Source: Onthophagus taurus
Taxonomy: Eukaryota; Arthropoda; Insecta; Coleoptera; Scarabaeidae
NCBI RefSeq assembly: GCF_036711975.1
Contig: NC_091966.1
Location: forward strand, 35,223,501 to 35,287,500
DNA: 64,000 nt
Reading direction: 5' to 3'
Shown here: positions 29,566 to 51,057 of the stretch, piece after piece
Layout of the letters: the number at the start of each line of letters is the position of its first letter
How positions within the stretch are numbered: the first letter of the stretch is position 1
Notes under the pieces: model-generated
Told to the model about the DNA's origin: nothing
What the model saw: only the letters and a program-made list of their open reading frames with translations
The model's database searches: none
Made by a program: the position numbers and the translations under genes

Positions 29566-32500
29566 ATGTTTTTGTTATTTTCATGGTTTGATTACACATC
29601 ATTAATTTTAATGCTCTTAATAAGTACGGTAATCGGAATTTATTATGGATTTTATAATAAACAATCTTCAGCAAAAGATTATCTTCTCGGTGGTAAAAAT
29701 ATGAACGTTTGGCCAATTTCTTTATCTTTGGTATCAAGGTAAGACAATTTTAGTTTAATTAATTTAGATTTCTTTGTGTTTAAATACAACTTTAAGCTAA
29801 TCATTTACACTTTTCTTTAATTTAATATAGTTGTAGTTGTATATCTGGAGTACCTCTTTTGACATTTCCTGTAGAAATTTATAGTTTCGGAATCATTTCG
29901 CGTATTATTTGTGGTAACACGACCGCATAAATTATAATTTCATAATACTTTCAAGAATGATAAACTTCAAATAAATCAAATAACGTCTTACCTTCCGGAA
30001 AATATTTTCCTAAAAACAAGGAAAATTACAAAAATACCTTCGATAACCTTCAATAAACATTAAACATTTCTTTCACCTGATTGTTTGTCATGCCAAGAAT
30101 TTTTTAACTTATTCTACATCATTGGGCGTATTGTTTGTAATAAACGATCACATAAAATAAAATTTCGTCCTTATTTTATTCATAACATGCTGTCTAAATT
30201 CTATGTTTTTTTAACCTTCCATACTTTACATTCCGGTTTATTTTATACATATATTGAGACCTATCGATAATTTCCTTTCGTAGTATTTCCTATGCACCGC
30301 TCGTTTCCTCTAGTATTTATATCGTCTTAACTTAAAAAAATCTTTCTTAAAAATGTGTTTATTATTCTCATGGTTTGATTACTTCTTCTTCTTTCTCTTA
30401 CCCCCATTTATACCTTACCATGTTGGGTTTTGGATCCATCTTTCATACATCTTTCTATTTCTGGCCATAGTACTTCGGCGAGTTTCTTTCAACCATCTTC
30501 TCAATCTCTCCCTGCCATTGGGCTCTTGATCTACCACGCTTTCTCTGTCCTTCTGGCCTCATATTGAACATTTTTTTAAGTATTCTATCTTCTTTCATTC
30601 GAACCAAATGACCATACCAACTTAGTTGTTTTCCTTCTATTTCTTGTACCAGCTTAGTTCTTTTCTGATGTTCTTGTTCCATACCCTATCTCTTCTGGTT
30701 TTCCCCCATATCTTGCGTAGGTACTTCATCTCTGCTGCTGTTCTTTTTTATTTCGGTTGTCCAACATCGACCTAGTTTCTGATCCATAATTAAGTGTGGG
30801 TATATAGAGTGTAGGTTTTATTAATTGTATTTTTGCTTTAGTGTTCAATTCCTTCTTGCCTACGAGGGTGTTGCTCTTGCTGTTCTGTTGTGTATTTCCT
30901 GATCTATCTTTCCATCCTTACTTGTTGTGGTTCCAATATATTCGTATTTTTCTACCACATCCAATCGTTGCCCCTCTATTCTTACGTCAATAACTAATAA
31001 TTACACATTAATCTTTTAATATTTTTTTATCATTTACACTTTTCTTTAATTTAATATAGTTGTATATCTGGAGTACCTCTTTTGGCTTTTCCTGTCGAAA
31101 TTTATAGTTTCGGAATATCAACTGCTTTGGTTACATTTGAAATGGCAATAATATTTTTGTCTACATATTTCATATTTTTACCCGTATTTTATCAATTACA
31201 AGTGACGAGTATGTACGAATATTTCCAACTAAGATTTGATAAAAAAATGAGGATGCTGGCATCTATAATGTACACTGTTTACATGGCTTTATATTTACCG
31301 TTAGCGATTTATGTGCCATCTTTAGCACTCTCTCAAGGTAAAACATCAAATTTAGGTAAAAAGTAATTCAAAAATTTCGCTAATTATTTCAAATAAAAAT
31401 TTTAGTTACTGGAATTTCAGTTGGATTTTTTAGTCCAATTTTATGTGGAATATGTATTTTTTATACAACTTTAGGAGGAGTTAAAGCTGTCGTGTGGACG
31501 GATGCTTTACAATTTTTCTTTATGATCGGTTCGATGTTTGCTGTTGTTGTTATTGGAATAACGCATGTCGGTGGAATTCGAAATCTATGGAAATTGGCTT
31601 CAGAAAATGGAAGATTAGATTTAACGTAATAATAATAACAATAATTTTTATTTTAAAAATCGTTTCGAATTATTTTTTAGTTTCGAATTAGATCCCACCA
31701 TAAAGGATAGTTTTTGGAGTGGAGCAATTGGATTTCTTTTCGTTTGGTTCACTACGGTTGCTTTAAATCAAGGAACGATTCAAAAATGCATGTCAGTTTC
31801 TTCTTATAAAAAAGTCAAAAAGTAATTCTTTTATTAAAACAATAATTATTTTTTGAATGATTTGATTTTATTCATTACACAGAGCTTTATTAATATCTTG
31901 GATAACTTTAAGCATTCTTTTATTCTTTATATTTTTCGCCGGTTTAGCGATGTACGCAAAATATTTCGATTGCGATCCTTTACTATCTAATAAAATTCAA
32001 AAACGTGATCAAATGCTTCCTTATTACGTTATGGATGTTTCTAAGAATATACCAGGACTTGCTGGGTTATTTATAGCAGGAATTTTAAGTGCAGGTTTAA
32101 GGTAATATTTTATTTAATAATTTAATTTAATTTTTCTTGTATTAATTTAAATTTAGCACATTATCAGCTGGAATGAATTGTTTAGGAGCTACAATTTATG
32201 AAGATTTCATCAAATCATTTCTCGGTGATAACATATCGGATAAAAAAACTAGTATTATATTAAAATTAATAGTAGCAGCAATTGGGGTGTTATGCACAGC
32301 TTTAGTTTACGTCGTTGAACAACTTGGAAATGTGTTACCTCTTGTTTTAAGTGTTTTTGGTGTCGCTGGGGGCCCAATTACAGGACTTTTCACCGTTGGG
32401 ATGATGGTACCAATGGTCAACTCAATAGTAAGTTAATTAAAACAGGAACTTTTTTAGTAACGATTTATTCCTTACTACAATTTTTAGGGTGCTCTTATAG

Positions 32501-32886
32501 GAGGAATAGTTTCTTTAATAGTAATGTCTTGGATTGTTGTTGGCACACATATATACCGAAAAAGCCATCCTTATTCACTTCTACCAATATCAATAAACGG
32601 TTGTCCATTAAATGGAACTTTGGGTGTTTTAAACACAACTAAAAATGTTTTTGTCAAAGACGATGGATTCTTTTTATTTAGGATTTCACCAAATTACTAC
32701 GCATTAATGGGGTTTTTGATTGTTGTCATTTTAAGTATTGCGATTAGCTGTGTTATTAATAAGAAAAATACTGTTGTTAATAAGGATTGTATCACTCCGT
32801 TCATGCAGTTCTTGTTACCTAAAACTGAAAAGTATATTTCCATTGAAGAAATTGTTAAATTCACTGATGAGTACAATAAAATTTAA
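29566..32886 (+). CDS. Copy 6: SLC5/SSF transporter with a probable replaced first exon
   Basis: Proposed exons are 29566-29738, 31060-31337, 31406-31625, 31681-31821, 31883-32101, 32157-32427 and 32488-32886, 566 aa. Exon 1 (MFLLFSWFDYTSLIL to SLSLVS) is intact with a GTAAGA donor, and its phase fits exon 2. Signatures are SGVPLLAFPVEIYSFG, VKAVVWTDALQFFF, TIQKCMSVSSYKK, GLFIAGILSAGLR, and TIYEDFIKSF followed by TVGMMVPMVNS. There is no intron in the last exon. The 1.3-kb first intron is not ordinary: it contains a piece of exon 2 (29837-29892), a copy of the copy 7 upstream region (29947-30352), a broken exon 1 (30353-30382) and a non-LTR insertion. If splicing skips all this the gene is functional; otherwise it is dead. 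Exons 2-7 have no stop. Closest to copy 7. Confidence 0.78.
29837..29892 (+). pseudogene. Truncated exon 2 fragment
   Basis: It reads CISGVPLLTFPVEIYSFGI after an AG acceptor, then homology stops where the intact exon 2 continues with STALVTFE. With the exon at 29566-29738 it is the remains of a separate transporter copy broken in exon 2. Confidence 0.75.
29947..30382 (+). pseudogene. Original promoter region and start of exon 1 of copy 6, cut off by a retroelement
   Basis: 29947-30352 is an inverted copy of the sequence upstream of copy 7 (38035-38423), including CCTATGCACCGCTCGTTTCC. It ends in ATG at 30353 and ten codons (MCLLFSWFDY) of exon 1. Exon 1 then stops at 30382, where the non-LTR insert begins. 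Confidence 0.82.
30383..30999 (-). mobile_element. 5'-truncated non-LTR retrotransposon insertion in exon 1 of copy 6
   Basis: The minus-strand frame 30682-30455 reads QLSWYGHLVRMKEDRILKKM and RGRSRAQWQGEIEKMVE, the typical C-terminal end of an endonuclease/reverse-transcriptase polyprotein. The 3' tail is GAA-rich at 30383-30397. ATTAC flanks the insert on both sides (30378-30382 and 31000-31004), a target-site duplication. After the right ATTAC, ACACATTA-type exon 1 sequence continues for about 20 nt and then joins intron sequence, so the rest of exon 1 was deleted. Confidence 0.85.
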
Positions 32887-33109: not shown

Positions 33110-34030
33110 AGTATTTAAGGGAAAGAGACGTAGCAATAAATTTAGCGAGCTAAATAAATACCTTGTATTAGGCAATTACGAAACTATTCGAGAAAGCAAA
33201 ACTGCTTCCAAGAACTATTAAACCAAATGGATACCCAAGGTGAACTGAATATAGACTATAGAATAAATTAGAGACCAGAGGAACCTGATATAAAACCAAA
33301 CGGTGGTTGGATTGGGTTGGGTGGTTGGTAAACATCCAAAAAGTACTGAGATCGCTAAATAATGAAAGAGCGCCAAGAATAGACAACATCCCAGCAGAAC
33401 TCTTCAAGTATGGGGAAGACCCAATTGCAGGAGATATGTACAGTCTAATAAAATAAAATATGGGTTAGTGAGAAGATACAAGACGAATGGAAAACAAATT
33501 ACTATGTGAAAACTATAGACGTATATTACCACTTAGTAATGCCTACAAAGTATTCATTAACGTCGTTAAAGACTATTTGAAACCTTTGGCAGAAAGAATG
33601 TTGGAAGAGTATCAGGTCTTTAGACATATTCCATTTATACATCGACCTGAAAATAGCTTAGGATAACGTAGACAGAAGTAAACTTCTATCAACACTGTTA
33701 GACTTCGACATTCCATCAAAGCTGGTTAGAATGATACGCATAACATTGAATAAAGAATACAACAAGTAGAGAAGATTGATGGAAAAATCGGAGAAACAAA
33801 AGATTTGAAGTCTCACAAGGCCTGAAACAGACCGATGCAAAATCAAAGTTTACAATCTTTTATGCTATAAATAACAGCTTAACACCGACAGCGGCGTCTA
33901 CATCGGAACTTAGAGTTGTGTTAAGTGATAAATTCCGATTCTGCTTGAGGATATACAATGGTCGTATGAAGGTCAGACGAAGACTTGAGGAACGTCACAA
34001 TGGAAATGCTCACACCAAACTGTGAGAATC
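33110..34030 (+). mobile_element. RTE-like non-LTR reverse transcriptase remnant
   Basis: Broken plus-strand frames match the reverse-transcriptase order: SLNNERAPRIDNIPAELFKY near 33350, LPLSNAYKVFINVVKDYLKP near 33520, PLAERMLEEYQ, then DVDRSKLL-like and IPSKLVRMIRITLN near 33710, and KIGETKDLKSHKA near 33800. Many stops. It lies in the spacer between the converging copies 6 and 7. Confidence 0.68.
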
Positions 34031-35984: not shown

Positions 35985-38034
35985 TTATAATTGAATTTTA
36001 TTATACTCATTATCTTTATCGGTTAATTTAACAATTTCTTCCACTGGAAAATACATTTCTGTTTTAGGCAATAAAAATTGCATAAAAGGAGTGATACAAT
36101 CCTTATCAACAATAGTGTTTCTCTTCTTAAAAAGAAAACTGATCACAACACTTAAAACTACGACAATTAGGAATCCCATTAATGTATAATAATTGGGCGA
36201 AAGTCTAAATAAAAAGAATCCATCGTCTTTTACAAAAACGTGTGCAGTTGTATTTAAAGCACTCAAAGTTCCATTTAACGGACAACCATCTGTCGATATT
36301 GGTAAAAGTGAATAAGGATGGGTTGTTCGATAAATATGTGTACCAACAACAATCCAAGACATTACTACTAAAGAAACTATTCCTCCTATAAGAGCACCCT
36401 AAAAATTATATTAACGAATAAATTCTTACTCAAAAAGGTTGTTTTAATTAACTTACTATTGAGTTTACCATTGGAACCATCATTCCAACGGTGAAGATTC
36501 CTAAAATTGGACCTCCAGCAACACCAAAAACACTTAAAACAAGAGGTAACACATTTCCAAGTTGTTCAACGGCGTAAACTAAAGCTGTGCATATAACACC
36601 AATTGCAGCTACAATTAATTTTAGTAATAGACTAGTTTTTTTATCCGAGATATTAGCACCGAGAAATGGTTTCAGGAAATCTTCATAAATTGTAGCTCCC
36701 AAACAGTTCATTCCAGCTGATAATGTGCTAAATTAAAATTAATAAAATATAATTAATTACGAATTCAAATTAAACTTAATTACCTTAGAGCTGCGCTTAA
36801 GATTCCTGCTATAAATAACCCAGCAAGTCCTGGTATGTTCTTAGAAACGTCCATTACAAAATAAGGAACCATTTGGTCACGTTTTTGAATTTTGTTAGAT
36901 GCTAAAGGATCACAATCGAAATATTTTGCGTACATCGTTAAACCAGTAAAGAAAACGAAAAATAAAAGGATGCTTAACGTTATCCAAGATGTCAATAAAG
37001 CTCTAATAATAATAATTGAAAAATTAAAAAAATATTAATATTTTTAAATAAAAGAATTACTTTTTGACTTCTTTGTAGGAAGAAAGCGACATGCATTTTT
37101 GAATCGTTCCTTGATTTAAAGAAACCACGGTGAACCAAACGAAAAGGAATCCAACCGCTCCACTCCAAAAACTATCTTTTATGGTAGGATCTAATTCGAA
37201 ACTAAAAAAATAATTTGAAACTATTTGTAAAATAAAAATTATGCGTTATTACGTTAAATCTAATCTTCCATTATCTGAAGCTAATTTCCAAAGGTTTTCA
37301 ATTCCACCAGCATGGATTGTTCCAACGACTACAACAACCAACATCGAACCGATCATAAAGAAAAATTGTAAAGCATCCGTCCACACGACGGCTTTAAGTC
37401 CACCCAAAGTTGTGTAAAAGATACATATTCCACATAAAATTGGACTTAAAACTCCAGCAGCAATTCCAGTAACTAAAAAAAATATTTAAAATAATTTACT
37501 ACATTTTTGAATTTGATGTTTTACCTTGAGAGAGTGCTAAAGATGGTACATAAATAACTAATGGTAGATACAAAGCCATATAAATAGTGTATAATACAGA
37601 AGCGAGAATCCTCATGCTTTTATCGAATCTTAATTGAAAATATTCGTACATACTTGTTACTTGTAATTGATAAAATACGGGTAAAAATATGAAATATGTA
37701 GAACCGAATATTATTGCCATTTCAAAAGTAACTAAAGCAGTTGATATTCCAAAACTATATATTTCCGTGGGAAACGTCAAAAGAGGTACTCCAGACACAC
37801 AACTAAATTAAATCAATACATTATATATTTCTTTTGAAGATATATTAAAAAATAATCTTACCTTGACACTAATGATAAAGAAATTGGCCAAACGTTCATG
37901 TTTTTACCCCCAAGAAGATATTCTTTCGCTGAAGTTTGTTTTTGGAAAAATCCATAATAAATTCCGATTATGGTGCTTATTAAAAGCATTAAAATAAATA
38001 ATGTGTAATCCAACCATGAGAATAATAAAGACAT
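35985..38034 (-). CDS. Copy 7: SLC5/SSF sodium-coupled solute transporter
   Basis: Seven exons: 38034-37862, 37802-37525, 37472-37253, 37201-37061, 37002-36784, 36727-36457 and 36398-35985, 571 aa. Start is MSLLFSWLDYTLFIL; signatures are SGVPLLTFPTEIYSFG, LKAVVWTDALQFFF, TIQKCMSLSSYKEVKK, GLFIAGILSAALR, IYEDFLKPF and TVGMMVPMVNS. All junctions are GT-AG in conserved phase and no break was seen. The C-terminal exon is one piece; copies 2-5 have an intron there. It converges on copy 6, and the homology extends about 400 bp upstream of both starts, so the pair arose by inverted duplication. The role (Na+-coupled uptake of small organic solutes at the plasma membrane) is inferred from the family. 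Confidence 0.92.
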
Positions 38035-38429
38035 TTTTAAGTTAAGACGATATAAATACTAGAGGAAACGAGCGGTGCATAGGAAGTACTACAAAAGGAA
38101 GTTATCGATAAGCCTCAATATATAAAATAAACCGGAATGTAAAAAATGGAAGGTTAAAAAAAACATAGAATTTAGACAGCATGTTATGAAAAAAATAAGA
38201 ACGAAATTTTAATTTATGTGATCGTTTATTACAAACAATACCCTCAATGATGTAGAATAAGTTAAAAAATTCTTGATATGACAAACAATCAGGTGAAAGA
38301 AATGTTTAATGTTTATTGAAGGTTATCGAAGGTATTTTTGTAATTTTCCTTGTTTTTAGGAAAATATTTTCCGGAAGGTCAGACGTCATTTGATTTATTT
38401 GAAGTTTATAATTCTTGAAAGTAATTGTT

Positions 38430-44157: not shown

Positions 44158-47100
44158 TTAGGATCTTTCCATAACAATAGTTAATGCTTTGTCGACGTCA
44201 TGATACGAATTTTCGTTGTCTTTACCTGATAAAAGAAAATGAGCGACCGGACTTATATAATCCTTATTTACCACCGTCTCCTTGTCTTTCGTAAAATAAC
44301 TCACTATGACACTAACAACAATAACAATCATTACCGCTATCATTGAATAATAATTATGTGATATTGTATAAAGAAAAAAGCCATCTTCACTTTCTTGATC
44401 GGGTACGCTTTGAGTCAATTTTGTTATTGTATTATTAATGCAAGAATTTGTTGAAAGTGGTAATGGAATATAAGGATATTTACTTCTATGGATGTACCCT
44501 CCGATTGTAATCCACGCCATTATTATTAGTGATGCCGTACCACCGCAGAGTGCCCCCTAAAAAAATTTACTCATTTTCTGTGAGATATAAAAATGGAATA
44601 AAAACCTTTGAATTAACCATTGGTATTAACATTCCAATCGTAAAAAGACCCAATAAAGGTGCTCCTGCAACACTCATAAAACTGATAACTAAAGGAAATA
44701 AGCTTCCTAAATGTTCAACTGCGAAAACTAATGCGGTTGAAATTAGTCCAATAAATAATACCAACAATTTCAATATAAAACTTTCTTTTCTTTCTGAAAT
44801 ATCTTTTTTCATAAATGGTTTTATGAAATCTTCATACATTGTTGCCGCTAAACAGTTCATTGCAGCTGATAGTGTACTGAAAAAAAAATTATTTCAGAAT
44901 TTTTCACTAAACCAAAGCCATGAAATTTAAATTTAAACTAACATAGTAATGAATCTTGCTATTATGGATTAACTGGGATTAGATATTGAATAAAGAATTA
45001 CAATTAAAAGATTATCCAACAAAAAATGTATCACTCTATGCTTTTGTACTATTTTGATATGTTTGAATTTCCAATAATTTTTGTAAAAATTTCTCGGTAT
45101 ACAATTGCAGCATTCATAGTTTGCATACTTGTTATTATGATAAATATATTTGTGTACTCATACAATTTTCTTTTCGTTTCTGACGTTTGTATTATCGTAT
45201 TATTAATGACAACTTTCTCTTACATTATATTTTCCAAGATGTTTCTGTAATTTTATTTCAATCTTTATATTCTCGCATTATTTTCTGGTAAGCTATCTTG
45301 AAATAGAAAAGATCCATAGGGTTTTCGGGTTAGCATGTGTCCAAACAAAGCTTGAGATGGAGTCAATCTAGTACTTGTAATGCTCTTCTTATAAGTTATA
45401 ATAACGGCTCTTATTTTTTATTTATCGTAATAATTTAGGTCTCCTCATCTATGCAACGTATGTAACTTCGTATATATTTCCTTGCGATTTCAGTTTCTTT
45501 ATTGTTGTAACGTGCAATTTATGTCGTTGATTTTAATTAGTTTTTTAATCATTTTGTTATCAAATTCTGTTCATGTGTCTGCGCATATTTCACTTTACTA
45601 TTCCATTACATAACTAGTTAGACATGAAGTAGGACTTCAGTATGCCTCTAAATATCTTCTCTTTTGAATCTTATAATTCTCTATTTCAGTTACAGAATGT
45701 TCTGGGATCTCTATATCAATCAGTTGTTGAAGTTTTATCTCCATTCTTAATTTTTAATTAAAAGATCTAATTTGGAAATACGTAATACTGTTTTTCGTCT
45801 GTTAAATCCATGACATAATGAATTGTCTGTTCTCCTAGCTGGTTTCACTTCTTCATCCTTTAATTTACCATCATGTTTTAGTACCATTATAGTCATATTT
45901 TCTGATTATTGCTTCCAGCACCAAATTGAATGGTGTAATCAACAGCGCATCATTCGCGTCATTTCTCTCTGTAAGAACATTTCTTTGGTCATCATTACAT
46001 GTATTTATTTTAGGCCTAAAAACTGTCGTACTTTTTTTTTCAGCTTCCTATAGAAACCTACACTCTTGTTTTTGTTGTGATAATCTGCCATTTGTTGTAT
46101 TTTTCTGTTAAAATCCTCTCTCTTCTTCCTTCTACATATTCTAGACACCGTTCTTTTTTGGTTATAATTGTTTCTATTTACCACTATTCATTCCTTAGTT
46201 TTCTGTATTTCACAGTACTACTTGCTGTCTCAATGATTGAATTTTTTATGCACGACCGTTCTTTATCTACGTCCTCCGTGCGATCTGATGTTCTGGATGG
46301 AAGCACCCCCAATCTTACAGACTAATACACGGTTTATTTCATTGATCTCGTTTGTTACCGGTATCTGCCACTTTGCTTTGTATATATTTTCCGTGGGAAA
46401 CAAGTATTCTTGACTAAGTTACTACTTGAGACAAATTTAGCAACTCTGAATCTTACTTACTTACTACCTGTCTCTTAGTGGAAGCTGGATTTGTAAAACA
46501 GTTCCATCTGCAAGGTTAAATATTAAAAGTTTAAACCAAAATTTTCCCACATACGGTTTGTAGCTCATTATAGAAGCTTTCTGCAACATCTTTCGCTGTC
46601 TCAGTTGGAGCATGCATATTGATTGAAGATGTGTTGTGGAGTTACTCTTTTATTCTTTTAACGTATAGTTTATTAGATATTGGATGGAATCCCAAAATTG
46701 ATCCACGAATTCTTTCGGTTATTATAAATCGAACCCGCATTCTCCTTGTCTGTCTTCGTTTCTAGAGAAATACAGCAAGTAATCTCTTTTATTTATGATA
46801 CCCTTACTTTTCAATCTAATCTCCTAAATTGCTATAACAGCAATCACATATCTCTTGGACCTTCGGCTATGTTAATCATAGAACATGATTCGGACGTTCT
46901 AGATTCCAATCTGGAACGCAATCTTGCATTAATCGTTGCTTAGGTCGGTTCTGAAAAGAGCTTTGAGCTATTGATAACCATTTTTGAGCTACTCTTTCTA
47001 CGCTTTCTACGTCTAAAAAGATATCTTAGAGTGCAATTAATTTATAAGGGTGAATAGAAAGGAACAAAATTGTTGGTTTGTCAAAAATTAATGTTGAGTT

Positions 47101-48695
47101 AAAACTCAATATAATAAATCTTGTCTAAGACATCGTCGAATTGCTTATCACCAATGTTGTGCACAAAATTCTTTCTAATTTTGGTCATGATGTTAAGATT
47201 TTAATAGCATAAACCAGCTATTTCACTTTACCTTTTAGTTTGGTTTAAAACATCATAAGTAGTATAGAACTTAATATTTTGCAATTTGAAATAGGATTTA
47301 TTACTGGGATCACTAAATCAGGAGACAGTTTGAAAACATTCAAACATAACTAATAACTTAAAATAATTAATGACGAAAAGCTTTGAATGGCTCAGTTTAG
47401 AACTAAGTATTCAAATACTGATATAATAGAGAATGCTTGCTAACACCGTAAAAGTAATTTTCCTGGTTCAATTTAGACTAACACTTAATAATAATCACCT
47501 TAAGCCAGCACTTAAAATTCCCGAAACGAATAATCCTGGCAATCCAGGAATGTTTCTTCCAACATCCATTATGTAATAAGGTAACAATTGATCAGGTTTC
47601 TTTATTTTTCCACTTTTTAGCGGATCGCAATCGTAATACCTTCCAAACATAGTCATTCCACATATACATATAAACGCGACTAAAACCGTCATACCAGTGC
47701 CAAAAATAATTAGCGCCTGTTTAACTTTTTTAAACGTGGATAATGATAAACATTTTTGTATCGTGCTTTGATTGATACAAATTAAACTGCAAATGAAAAA
47801 TAAATTTCCTATACTGCTGTTCCAAAATGTTGTTCTTAATCTTGGATCAAGATCAAAGCTGAAAATTAATATTTATCTCAGTAAGCTTTTTGCGTTTTAT
47901 GATTAGTAATTTACTCGAAATCCAAGCGGTTTGTTTCGTATAACGTTTTCATAATAAAAGGTAATCCACCGGCTGCAATTATTCCAACGATAGCGATAAT
48001 CATCATTGAGCCGATCATCACAACAAATTGTAATGAATCCGTCCAAACAACAGCTTTCATTCCACCCAAAGTAGTGTAAAAAATACAAACACCGCAAGTT
48101 ATCGGTGTTATTAAATAAATATTAATTCCTGTAACTGATAAAAAAATACAGAAAAAAAAAATATTAAAAATTTTTTGTGTTACCTTGAGCTAACGCAAGA
48201 GCTGGTACGAAAATAACAACAGGGAGATAAAGAAGCATGTAAATAGTATAAAAAATCGATGCTAATATCCTGATTTTATTGTCAAATCTTAGTTTTAAAT
48301 ATTCGTAGGTACTGGTTAATTGGAGTTTATAAAACACCGGGATATAAAAGTAATATGTGAATAGTGTCGCTATTATTACCAAAAAAATTCCCAAAATAAA
48401 TTGGATACCGAAGTAATAAATTTCAACAGGAAATACTACTAAAGGAAGTCCAGACATTGTACTAAAACAATTTAAATGAAAAATTATTTCAATTTAATGA
48501 TTAATTACTAAAAAATATTTACCTGGATATTAATGATAGAGCTATAGGCCACACTGCCATTTTTTTACCTCCTAGTAAATACTCTTTAGCTGAAGATTGT
48601 GATTTAAAAAATCCATAATAAACTCCAATTACTGCACTGAGTATTAACATTAAAATAAGCAAGGAATAGTCAACCCAAGAAAAGTAGATATCCAT
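44158..48695 (-). CDS. Copy 8: SLC5/SSF sodium-coupled solute transporter
   Basis: Six exons: 48695-48523, 48461-48184, 48134-47915, 47858-47499, 44876-44606 and 44556-44158, 566 aa. Start is MDIYFSWVDYSLLIL; signatures are SGLPLVVFPVEIYYFG, MKAVVWTDSLQFVV, TIQKCLSLSTFKKVK, GLFVSGILSAGLR, MYEDFIKPF and TIGMLIPMVNS. The exon 47858-47499 is 360 nt, exactly the sum of the separate 141- and 219-nt exons of other copies, so one intron has been lost. The 2.6-kb intron 44877-47498 contains a degraded minus-strand non-LTR element. No stop or frameshift. The C terminus ends ALTIVMERS and is the parent-like version of the orphan remnant at 14639-14900. Function inferred from the family. Confidence 0.92.
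45500..46960 (-). mobile_element. Non-LTR retrotransposon remnant (endonuclease region) in an intron of copy 8
   Basis: The minus strand reads ILGFHPISNKLYVKRIK near 46690, then NTSSINMHAPTETAKDVAES near 46600, the early block of an APE-type endonuclease (cf. INxHAPTE). Further on, INEINRVLVCKIGGASIQNI occurs at about 46300-46370, where such elements have the RSRRGAD-type end of the domain. Stops and frameshifts throughout. Limits are approximate. Confidence 0.62.
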
Positions 48696-49014: not shown

Positions 49015-49260
49015 TTGATAATCATTAATTAACTTAATAATTTCTGCAATGGGAAAATTCCGTTTAATTTTAGGTAACAAAAAATGCATAAACGATGTGA
49101 TACAATATTTGCTTTGTGGTAAGAAAACTAATCACAAGACTTAAATTAAAAATCATTAAAATATAATATAGCTTAATTTTAAATAAAAATACTCAATCAT
49201 CTTCAACAAACTTATTTTTAGTTATGTTTAAAAAATAAATTGATGTAAGTAAAAGTGAAT
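49015..49260 (-). pseudogene. C-terminal exon remnant of a copy 7-like transporter
   Basis: It aligns with the last exon of copy 7 on the minus strand: the AATTTCT..ACTGG-type block, AATTGCATAAA..GTGATACAAT, AAGAAAACT..TCACAA and the ATCATCTT block (cf. 36010-36240). Several deletions destroy the frame. No upstream exons of this copy are found next to it. Confidence 0.65.
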
Positions 49261-49837
49261 AATGATGGGAGAGATAGATAGTAGTAGATATGTCCATTCT
49301 CAATTAAACCACTACATTTCTTCCTGACACCGCAAATTTTGGACACACCTAAATTGCTTCCTTACATCTTCAAAAGTAGTTACGCGAAATGACCAAATGG
49401 ACAAAACGTTTATGAATTAAAGTAGGTTTAGATACACAAAATCTGAATAAGTCAACTTTACATTAAATAGATATTCTTCCTATTATAACAGTAATAAATA
49501 TTTATCTATGTATATTAATGAACTGCAAAAAATTTAGGGGACTATTAGTCAAGTCGTGTGTTAAACTCCAACAGTTTCAATCTAAAGTATTGCGTTAAAA
49601 TGAACCATGTAGACTTGGACATTTCTGCACTTACAGAAATCATAAAAGAAACAACCATGCATTATGCCATAAACGAAAAAACACCCTAATGTGCTGGGAA
49701 GAAAATAAAAATGTAATTCTTTGAATAATAGTTATTTATATTACAAGTGGGCTAGAAACATAATTACTGTACAAGTGTGGAGAATGTAATCACACGAGTA
49801 CTGTAATTATGCACTAGCCTACGTGTGATATACAGCA

Positions 49838-50605
49838 TTTTATCTACGACTGCTAAAAATTACTAAAAAATCGATTTCTTTAAAAAAGTCTATTTGACAT
49901 TTATAAAAATATTTTGAAATGATTGTTGACAATTTTGAATTGTCAGTTTCAACAACATGTTTACTCTTCTGGAATAAGTGTTTCGAAATGTAAAAATATA
50001 ACAATTAATGTTTATAATAAATAGTATTGTTTCTCTTTAAATAGGTAGCACTTTTTCTTTTGTATTGTTGCTCGTTTTAACAAATTGAGTCTGTTCTGAT
50101 TGGGCTAAAAATGCGTCACGTAATGAAACCAGTGCGGTAATGAACTTCATTACGTAACTCAAATCACCTCAAATGAGTGTGGTAATGATGTCTTATCCAA
50201 GCAGTCGTAGATAATAGTATATTATTCAACAAGCGTATAATGGCGGCTGTTACCCACGAAGATGAAGTAATCTGTAGTAATGTAATCTGAGTGGGTAACA
50301 TCCATTATACGCAAGTTGAATACTATACTTTATCTACAACTATTTAATTTTGAAAAAAAATCAAAAAAAAACGAAAAAAAATAAACTTGATGGACATTTC
50401 AGACATAACCTCAATATAAGAAAGCTGTCATTTCTGTTAATATTTTATTTTTTGATTAGTAGGCCGTGTCAGAACTGTGGTATAATGGCTTCATTATTCA
50501 ACACTTTGTCAGTCATGGGTAATGCATGTCATTACCGTCAAAAATCAAATGTATAATGAATAGATAATTCAATAGTTGTAGATAAAAGAATTTTATTCAA
50601 CAATT
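49838..50605. repeat. Cluster of palindromic (MITE-like) sequences
   Basis: The word TTTATCTACRACTR occurs in alternating orientation at about 49838, 50204, 50328 and 50572. The second and third lie at the ends of an imperfect palindrome 50204-50345, with arms containing GCGTATAATGG and GTTACCCAC. GGTAATGA/CATTACGTAA motifs recur between. No coding sequence. It looks like two short inverted-repeat elements inserted next to each other. Confidence 0.55.
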
Positions 50606-50641
50606 CAATTTTTGTAAATTATCGTTTTTATTATTTTTCAG

Positions 50642-51057
50642 AGCTTTGTTAACATTTTGGACATCTTTAACCTTTCTTTTATCGATCATTTTCTTTAAGG
50701 GTTTTACAACGTACGCAAAATATTTAATTGCGATCCTTTAGCATCTAATAAAATTCAAAAACGTGACCAAATGCTTCCTTATTACGTTGTGGATGTTTCC
50801 ACGGGACTTAAAGAGAATATACCGGACTTGCTGGGTTATTTATAGCAGGAATTTTAAGTGCAGCTTTAAGACAACATTTTATAATCAATTTTAATTTGAA
50901 ATTTTCATTAATTAAATTTTATTCATTTTAATTTAGTGCATTATCAGCTTTAATGAATTATGTAGGAGCGATAATTTACGAAGACTTTACCAAAGCATTT
51001 CTTGGTAATAATATTTCTGACAAGGAAACTAGGCTTTTATTAAAATTAATCGTAGTC
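50642..51057 (+). pseudogene. Transporter pseudogene fragment (exons 5 and 6, copy 6/7-like)
   Basis: 50642-50870 matches the 219-nt exon (ALLTFWTSLTF, then RDQMLPYYVVDVS and LFIAGILSAAL), but a deletion in the TYAKYL-CDPL region shifts the frame, a small insertion follows DVS, and the donor is AAGAC instead of AAGGT. 50937-51057 matches the start of the 271-nt exon (ALSALMNYVGAIIYEDFTKA) and stops abruptly. No exon 1-4 or last exon on this strand nearby. Confidence 0.85.

Follow-up and report, generated by a model that had tools for sequence, protein, structure and literature searches.

The sixth copy of a transporter gene (copy 6) in a cluster of Onthophagus taurus is, in the reading that we favour with some confidence, an ordinary working member of the cluster, which has its own exon 1, later took up debris in intron 1 and is spliced from 29738 to 31060. 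Coordinates are those of the window, the whole 64,000-nucleotide stretch of contig NC_091966.1 that was analysed.

Copy 6 gene model and predicted product

The anatomy given in a preliminary description of this DNA was confirmed. The exon 1 that it called intact, with a good donor and a matching phase, is 173 nt long, starts with ATG and ends at the donor AAG|GTAAGA in phase 2. Joining 29738 to 31060 gives the full frame that it had predicted: the translation of the seven joined exons (1,701 nt, 566 aa) has no internal stop, and every intron is GT-AG. The features of copy 6, all on the forward strand and with the exons open in the joined frame, are:

29566–29738, +, exon 1, most likely the gene's own
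29739–31059, +, intron 1, 1,321 nt (59 nt in its copy 7 counterpart), with the distal acceptor at 31059|31060
31060–31337, +, exon 2
31406–31625, +, exon 3
31681–31821, +, exon 4
31883–32101, +, exon 5
32157–32427, +, exon 6
32488–32886, +, exon 7, including the stop codon

The predicted product carries the Pfam SSF (sodium:solute symporter) domain PF00474 at residues 39–442 (145.7 bits; cut-off 22.8), and human SMCT1 (7sl9, 7sl9_A) ranks first of 14 solved sequences, aligning with residues 6–500 (E 1.6e-99). A protein search of nr with the product scored 7,997 candidates, of which 307 reached E ≤ 0.001; in the best 120 of these, the name sodium-coupled monocarboxylate transporter is common. 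By its domain and its closest solved relative, the product is thus classed as an SLC5/SMCT-like transporter. In sequence it resembles the SLC5A8/A12 monocarboxylate transporters, through the SSF domain and the SMCT1 alignment; it differs from that system in that its gene belongs to a tandem cluster of a beetle and has the opposite orientation to copy 7. Among the papers listed by literature searches, nothing on this transporter locus was noticed.

Exons 2–7 carry no disabling change. The chance of their remaining intact if unconstrained since the repeat described below was formed is 0.004–0.053 across six settings, in a drift calculation in which the divergence of the repeat or tract serves as the clock and indel rates are assumed. 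Pairwise omega between copies 6 and 7 is 0.165 overall. Selection on the copy 6 branch alone was not upheld as a separate claim, since a three-branch test, with a saturated outgroup, did not reject omega = 1 there (2 delta lnL 1.6).

Distances to copy 7

The comparison that bears on which exon 1 is native uses the neighbouring copy:

35985–38423, −, copy 7 (exons 38034–35985) with a 5′ flank matching the block in copy 6 intron 1

Over 571 aa, the copy 7 protein matches the O. taurus database protein P0002 without a single difference. The preliminary description took 30353–30382 to be the original exon 1 of copy 6 and 29566–29738 to be borrowed. The distances point to the opposite assignment. 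Exon 29566–29738 differs from copy 7 at 23/173 positions (13.3%), as does the copy 6 body in exons 2–7 (197/1528, 12.9%; Fisher p = 0.90), with dS of 0.506 for exon 1 and 0.439 for exons 2–7. Introns 2–6 differ at 48/270 (17.8%). The tract that leads up to the broken exon, 29946–30352, has only 17 differences in 388 ungapped positions (4.4%) and is closer to copy 7 than the introns (p = 2e-8) and the exons (p = 3e-7) are; the broken exon start itself differs at 2/30. These distances group the upstream exon with the body of copy 6, and the start of the broken exon with copy 7. The upstream exon is further tied to copy 6 because the intron-1 end and exon-2 start that adjoin it are near-identical to those of copy 6.

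Equal distances of exon 1 and body favour one origin and are no proof, as a sister copy of copy 6 would look alike; the counts of 2/30 and 17/388 speak against the broken exon as copy 6's own, and conversion by copy 7 could mimic them. The upstream exon differs from the broken exon start at 3/30, against 3/88 in the repeat, a difference that is not significant (p = 0.17), and the 5′ flank of the upstream exon differs from copy 7 at 49/136, more than the introns do (p = 7e-5). Taken together, 29566–29738 is most likely copy 6's own exon, and the polarity of the preliminary description is probably reversed, with the broken exon being neighbour debris inside an enlarged intron.

Several other parts of the cluster were noted. 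Copy 8 (48695–44158, minus strand), whose protein differs from the nr protein P0007 at 2/566 residues, has an intron of ~2.6 kb at 44877–47498, where copies 6 and 7 have 55–56 nt. Fragments of a further copy 6/7 relative lie at 50591–51055 (+), with exons 5–6 ~78% identical to copy 6, and, as a C-terminal piece, at 49015–49291 (−); these are possibly remains of a lost copy that was the source of the broken exon 1. Another dispersed repeat (33165–33700; 25 genome matches including itself) lies 3′ of copy 6. There also seems to be a second cluster of the family on the same contig, as three exon-1-like matches (L006, L008 and L009) lie 1.7 Mb away, at ~33.56–33.57 Mb of C1.

The block inside intron 1

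The long intron 1 has the following parts:

29800–29893, +, left direct repeat, spanning the end of intron 1 and the start of exon 2
29831–29930, +, decoy exon up to its stop codon
29894–29945, +, short flank-like piece, diverged and not in the copy 7 order
29946–30352, +, copy-7-type promoter and 5′ UTR
30353–30382, +, copy-7-type exon-1 start, 10 codons
30383–30999, −, non-LTR-like insert of 617 nt, in the opposite orientation to the gene, with ATTAC on both sides
31000–31028, +, exon-1-like remainder past the insert
31029–31116, +, right direct repeat, matching the left repeat

The repeat copies, 88–94 nt long, stand one on either side of the block and are identical at 85/88 positions, with one 6-nt gap. 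Between them, 29946–30382 matches the copy 7 5′ region 38423–38005 over 438 aligned columns (91.1% with gaps counted), and a genome search with 29894–30382 gave two places only, itself and copy 7. The ATG of the broken exon opens a hydrophobic frame of 58 codons (30353–30526) that enters the insert and stops there.

The insert was correctly described as flanked by ATTAC: the target-site duplication, short at 5 nt, lies at 30378–30382 and 31000–31004, and copy 7 has the uninterrupted order GATTACACATTA at the insert site. The loss of the rest of the broken exon also stood up, as only ~23–29 nt of exon-1-like sequence are left between the insert and the intron-1 end. The 23 nt past the insert align to the upstream exon 1 with one mismatch and three gaps, and to copy 7 with three mismatches and two gaps, too short a stretch to be assigned to either type.

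In keeping with a non-LTR element, the insert combines the target-site duplication with genomic dispersal, with at least 46 genome matches (itself counted; 40 of the 98 candidates were scored). Its frames resemble the end of a putative protein of non-LTR reverse-transcriptase type; the class and orientation are assigned from the sequence and from the general features of such elements. Against a majority sequence of the eleven best-scoring among the 45 other matches, it differs at 41/605 positions and has 8 indels, 7 of them frame-shifting; a star-like tree of the insert and these eleven gives it a terminal branch of 0.088. Unless its source element had already diverged, the insert thus appears to be of greater age than the 4.4% distance between its flank and copy 7 would suggest.

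The piece at 29894–29945 is likewise at odds with the tract that follows it. It differs from copy 7 at 9/49, like the introns (p = 1.0) and unlike the tract (p = 0.001), and 29892–29941 matches copy 7 at 38251–38203. A partial tandem duplication of the copy 6 5′ end, which predicts that this piece lies ~3% from the upstream flank, is disfavoured: 4/27 positions differ plus a gap, with a probability of 0.013 under such a duplication. The match of the piece to the upstream flank was reached by 1/300 shuffles. A single recent insertion of the whole block is weakened by the diverged piece and the age of the insert; because the insert's divergence exceeds 4.4%, such an arrival fits poorly without later conversion by copy 7 or a diverged source. 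The block is perhaps a mosaic, in which copy 7 sequence later replaced the promoter and first codons of an old, broken 5′ end.

A database protein of the same make-up

The first nr match among the best 120 of the 307 is P0001, an O. taurus protein of 569 aa named 'sodium-coupled monocarboxylate transporter 2-like isoform X2' (98%), with 560 of 569 aligned positions identical to the copy 6 product and three gap positions. Names with 'isoform X' are automatic models, often RNA-guided. P0001 joins the same exon 1 type to the same body as copy 6. At the nine exon-1 residues that distinguish the upstream exon from copy 7, it agrees with the upstream exon at eight and with copy 7 at one; of the 71 positions within residues 58–560 that separate copies 6 and 7, it shares 68 with copy 6 and one with copy 7, and two match neither. 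It differs from copy 6 by six substitutions and by three further residues near its C terminus. At 32850–32886, copy 6 is without these three residues, an in-frame length difference.

A separate genomic locus for P0001 was rejected on DNA searches. These covered 290.8 Mb in 33 contigs and found exon 29566–29738 at one identical place, with copy 7 next at 87% (9 matches), and the copy 6 body at one identical place, with copy 7 next at 85% (19 matches); neither search revealed another genomic home for P0001. The published HiFi assembly of O. taurus is given as 290.0 Mb (PMC10942260). From the residue pattern and these matches, P0001 looks like another version of the copy 6 gene. The make-up expected of the 29738/31060 junction is therefore present as a database model. 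As a database entry, P0001 does not prove that the rearranged haplotype splices in this way.

Duplicated acceptors

Splice sites were scored with a matrix trained on introns 2–6 of copy 6 and introns 1–6 of copy 7, which supply 11 donors and 11 acceptors. The donor at 29738 scores 11.88 (training range 8.1–11.9), and the acceptors at 29830 and 31059 score 9.40 each (5.2–15.7). Three further AGs in intron 1 exceed the training minimum (29796, 8.78; 30794, 6.90; 29767, 6.64), and between 29745 and 31054 no GT exceeds 4.43, against a donor training minimum of 8.1.

The preliminary description had also placed a decoy exon-2 fragment near 29837–29892, and this was borne out: 29834–29893 is identical to 31057–31116 at 57/60 positions, and 36 nt across the acceptor are repeated exactly. 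With the intron ending at 29830, or at a second AG at 29836, the frame stops at 29930 and would yield 90 or 88 aa. The decoy intron, at 92 nt, is near the size usual here, compared with 1,321 nt for the distal one. Use of the decoy as a cassette exon was rejected, as 30469 is the sole GT to score above 4, and translation would still end at 90/88 aa.

Weighing the explanations

In the favoured reading, copy 6 would have kept its own first exon at 29566–29738. About 1.1 kb of paralogue debris (29894–31028), bringing a copy-7-type promoter, the first exon-1 codons and the non-LTR insert, would have entered intron 1, stretching it to 1,321 nt and leaving an intron-1 end and exon-2 start on both sides. 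The pre-mRNA would then be spliced from 29738 to 31060, skipping the acceptor at 29830, and encode the 566-aa transporter. The anatomy, the open frame, the divergence pattern and the database protein of the same make-up are observed; the nativeness of the exon, the later entry of the block, use of the distal acceptor in RNA and transport by the product we infer, and the 29738/31060 splice is probably used.

In the account of the preliminary description, copy 6 lost its own exon, 30353–30382, to the insert and a deletion, and splicing recruited an exon from a broken copy upstream; this strikes us as unlikely. In its favour, the broken exon adjoins copy 6 exon 2 and carries an insert of old appearance, the joined exons form an open frame, and 29894–29945 is as distant from copy 7 as the introns are, as a native old flank would be. 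However, a flank only 17/388 from copy 7 then requires conversion by copy 7, the 85/88 identity of the repeat beside the upstream exon to copy 6's own sequence requires recent shared origin or conversion, and the remainder of exon 1 must have been deleted separately, which makes for more events than the favoured reading. Of the accidental chimeric repair proposed there, the restored frame and the matching database protein stand, and the borrowing is the less likely reading. At the same low probability, a retrotransposon would have destroyed the gene's exon 1 and a dead relative's upstream exon would have substituted for it as a spare part, with no non-functional stage.

It is less probable still that the decoy acceptor wins in this haplotype, making copy 6 a recent pseudogene that gives the 88/90-aa product or none. 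The equal acceptor scores, the much shorter decoy intron and five AATAAA/ATTAAA words within intron 1 are consistent with such an outcome, but the lack of any adequate donor past the decoy, the intact exons 2–7 and the existence of P0001 argue against it, as does a decoy product for which a database search found no relative (1 candidate, none scored). Most improbable is that transcription also begins at 30353, driven by the copy-7-type promoter inside the intron, which would give copy 6 a second RNA set. The tract does retain the copy 7 5′ region at 17/388; the frame from its ATG, however, ends inside the insert, and the same dearth of donors applies there.

Discussion

Intron enlargement and splice-site duplication are known from rearrangement among tandem paralogues. 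Copy 6 intron 1 resembles such systems in having a duplicated acceptor, a paralogue fragment and a transposon together, and differs from them in that its single 1.1-kb block has parts of different apparent ages. Were the spare-part reading true, the substitute exon would be spliced over 1.3 kb, past an identical decoy acceptor.

The locus illustrates how a mistaken polarity can give the appearance of a repair by borrowing, the distance to a third paralogue here pointing to the native exon. It is also a natural setting in which to test how an acceptor is chosen, as two identical ones lie 1.2 kb apart and one alone would lead to the full-length protein.
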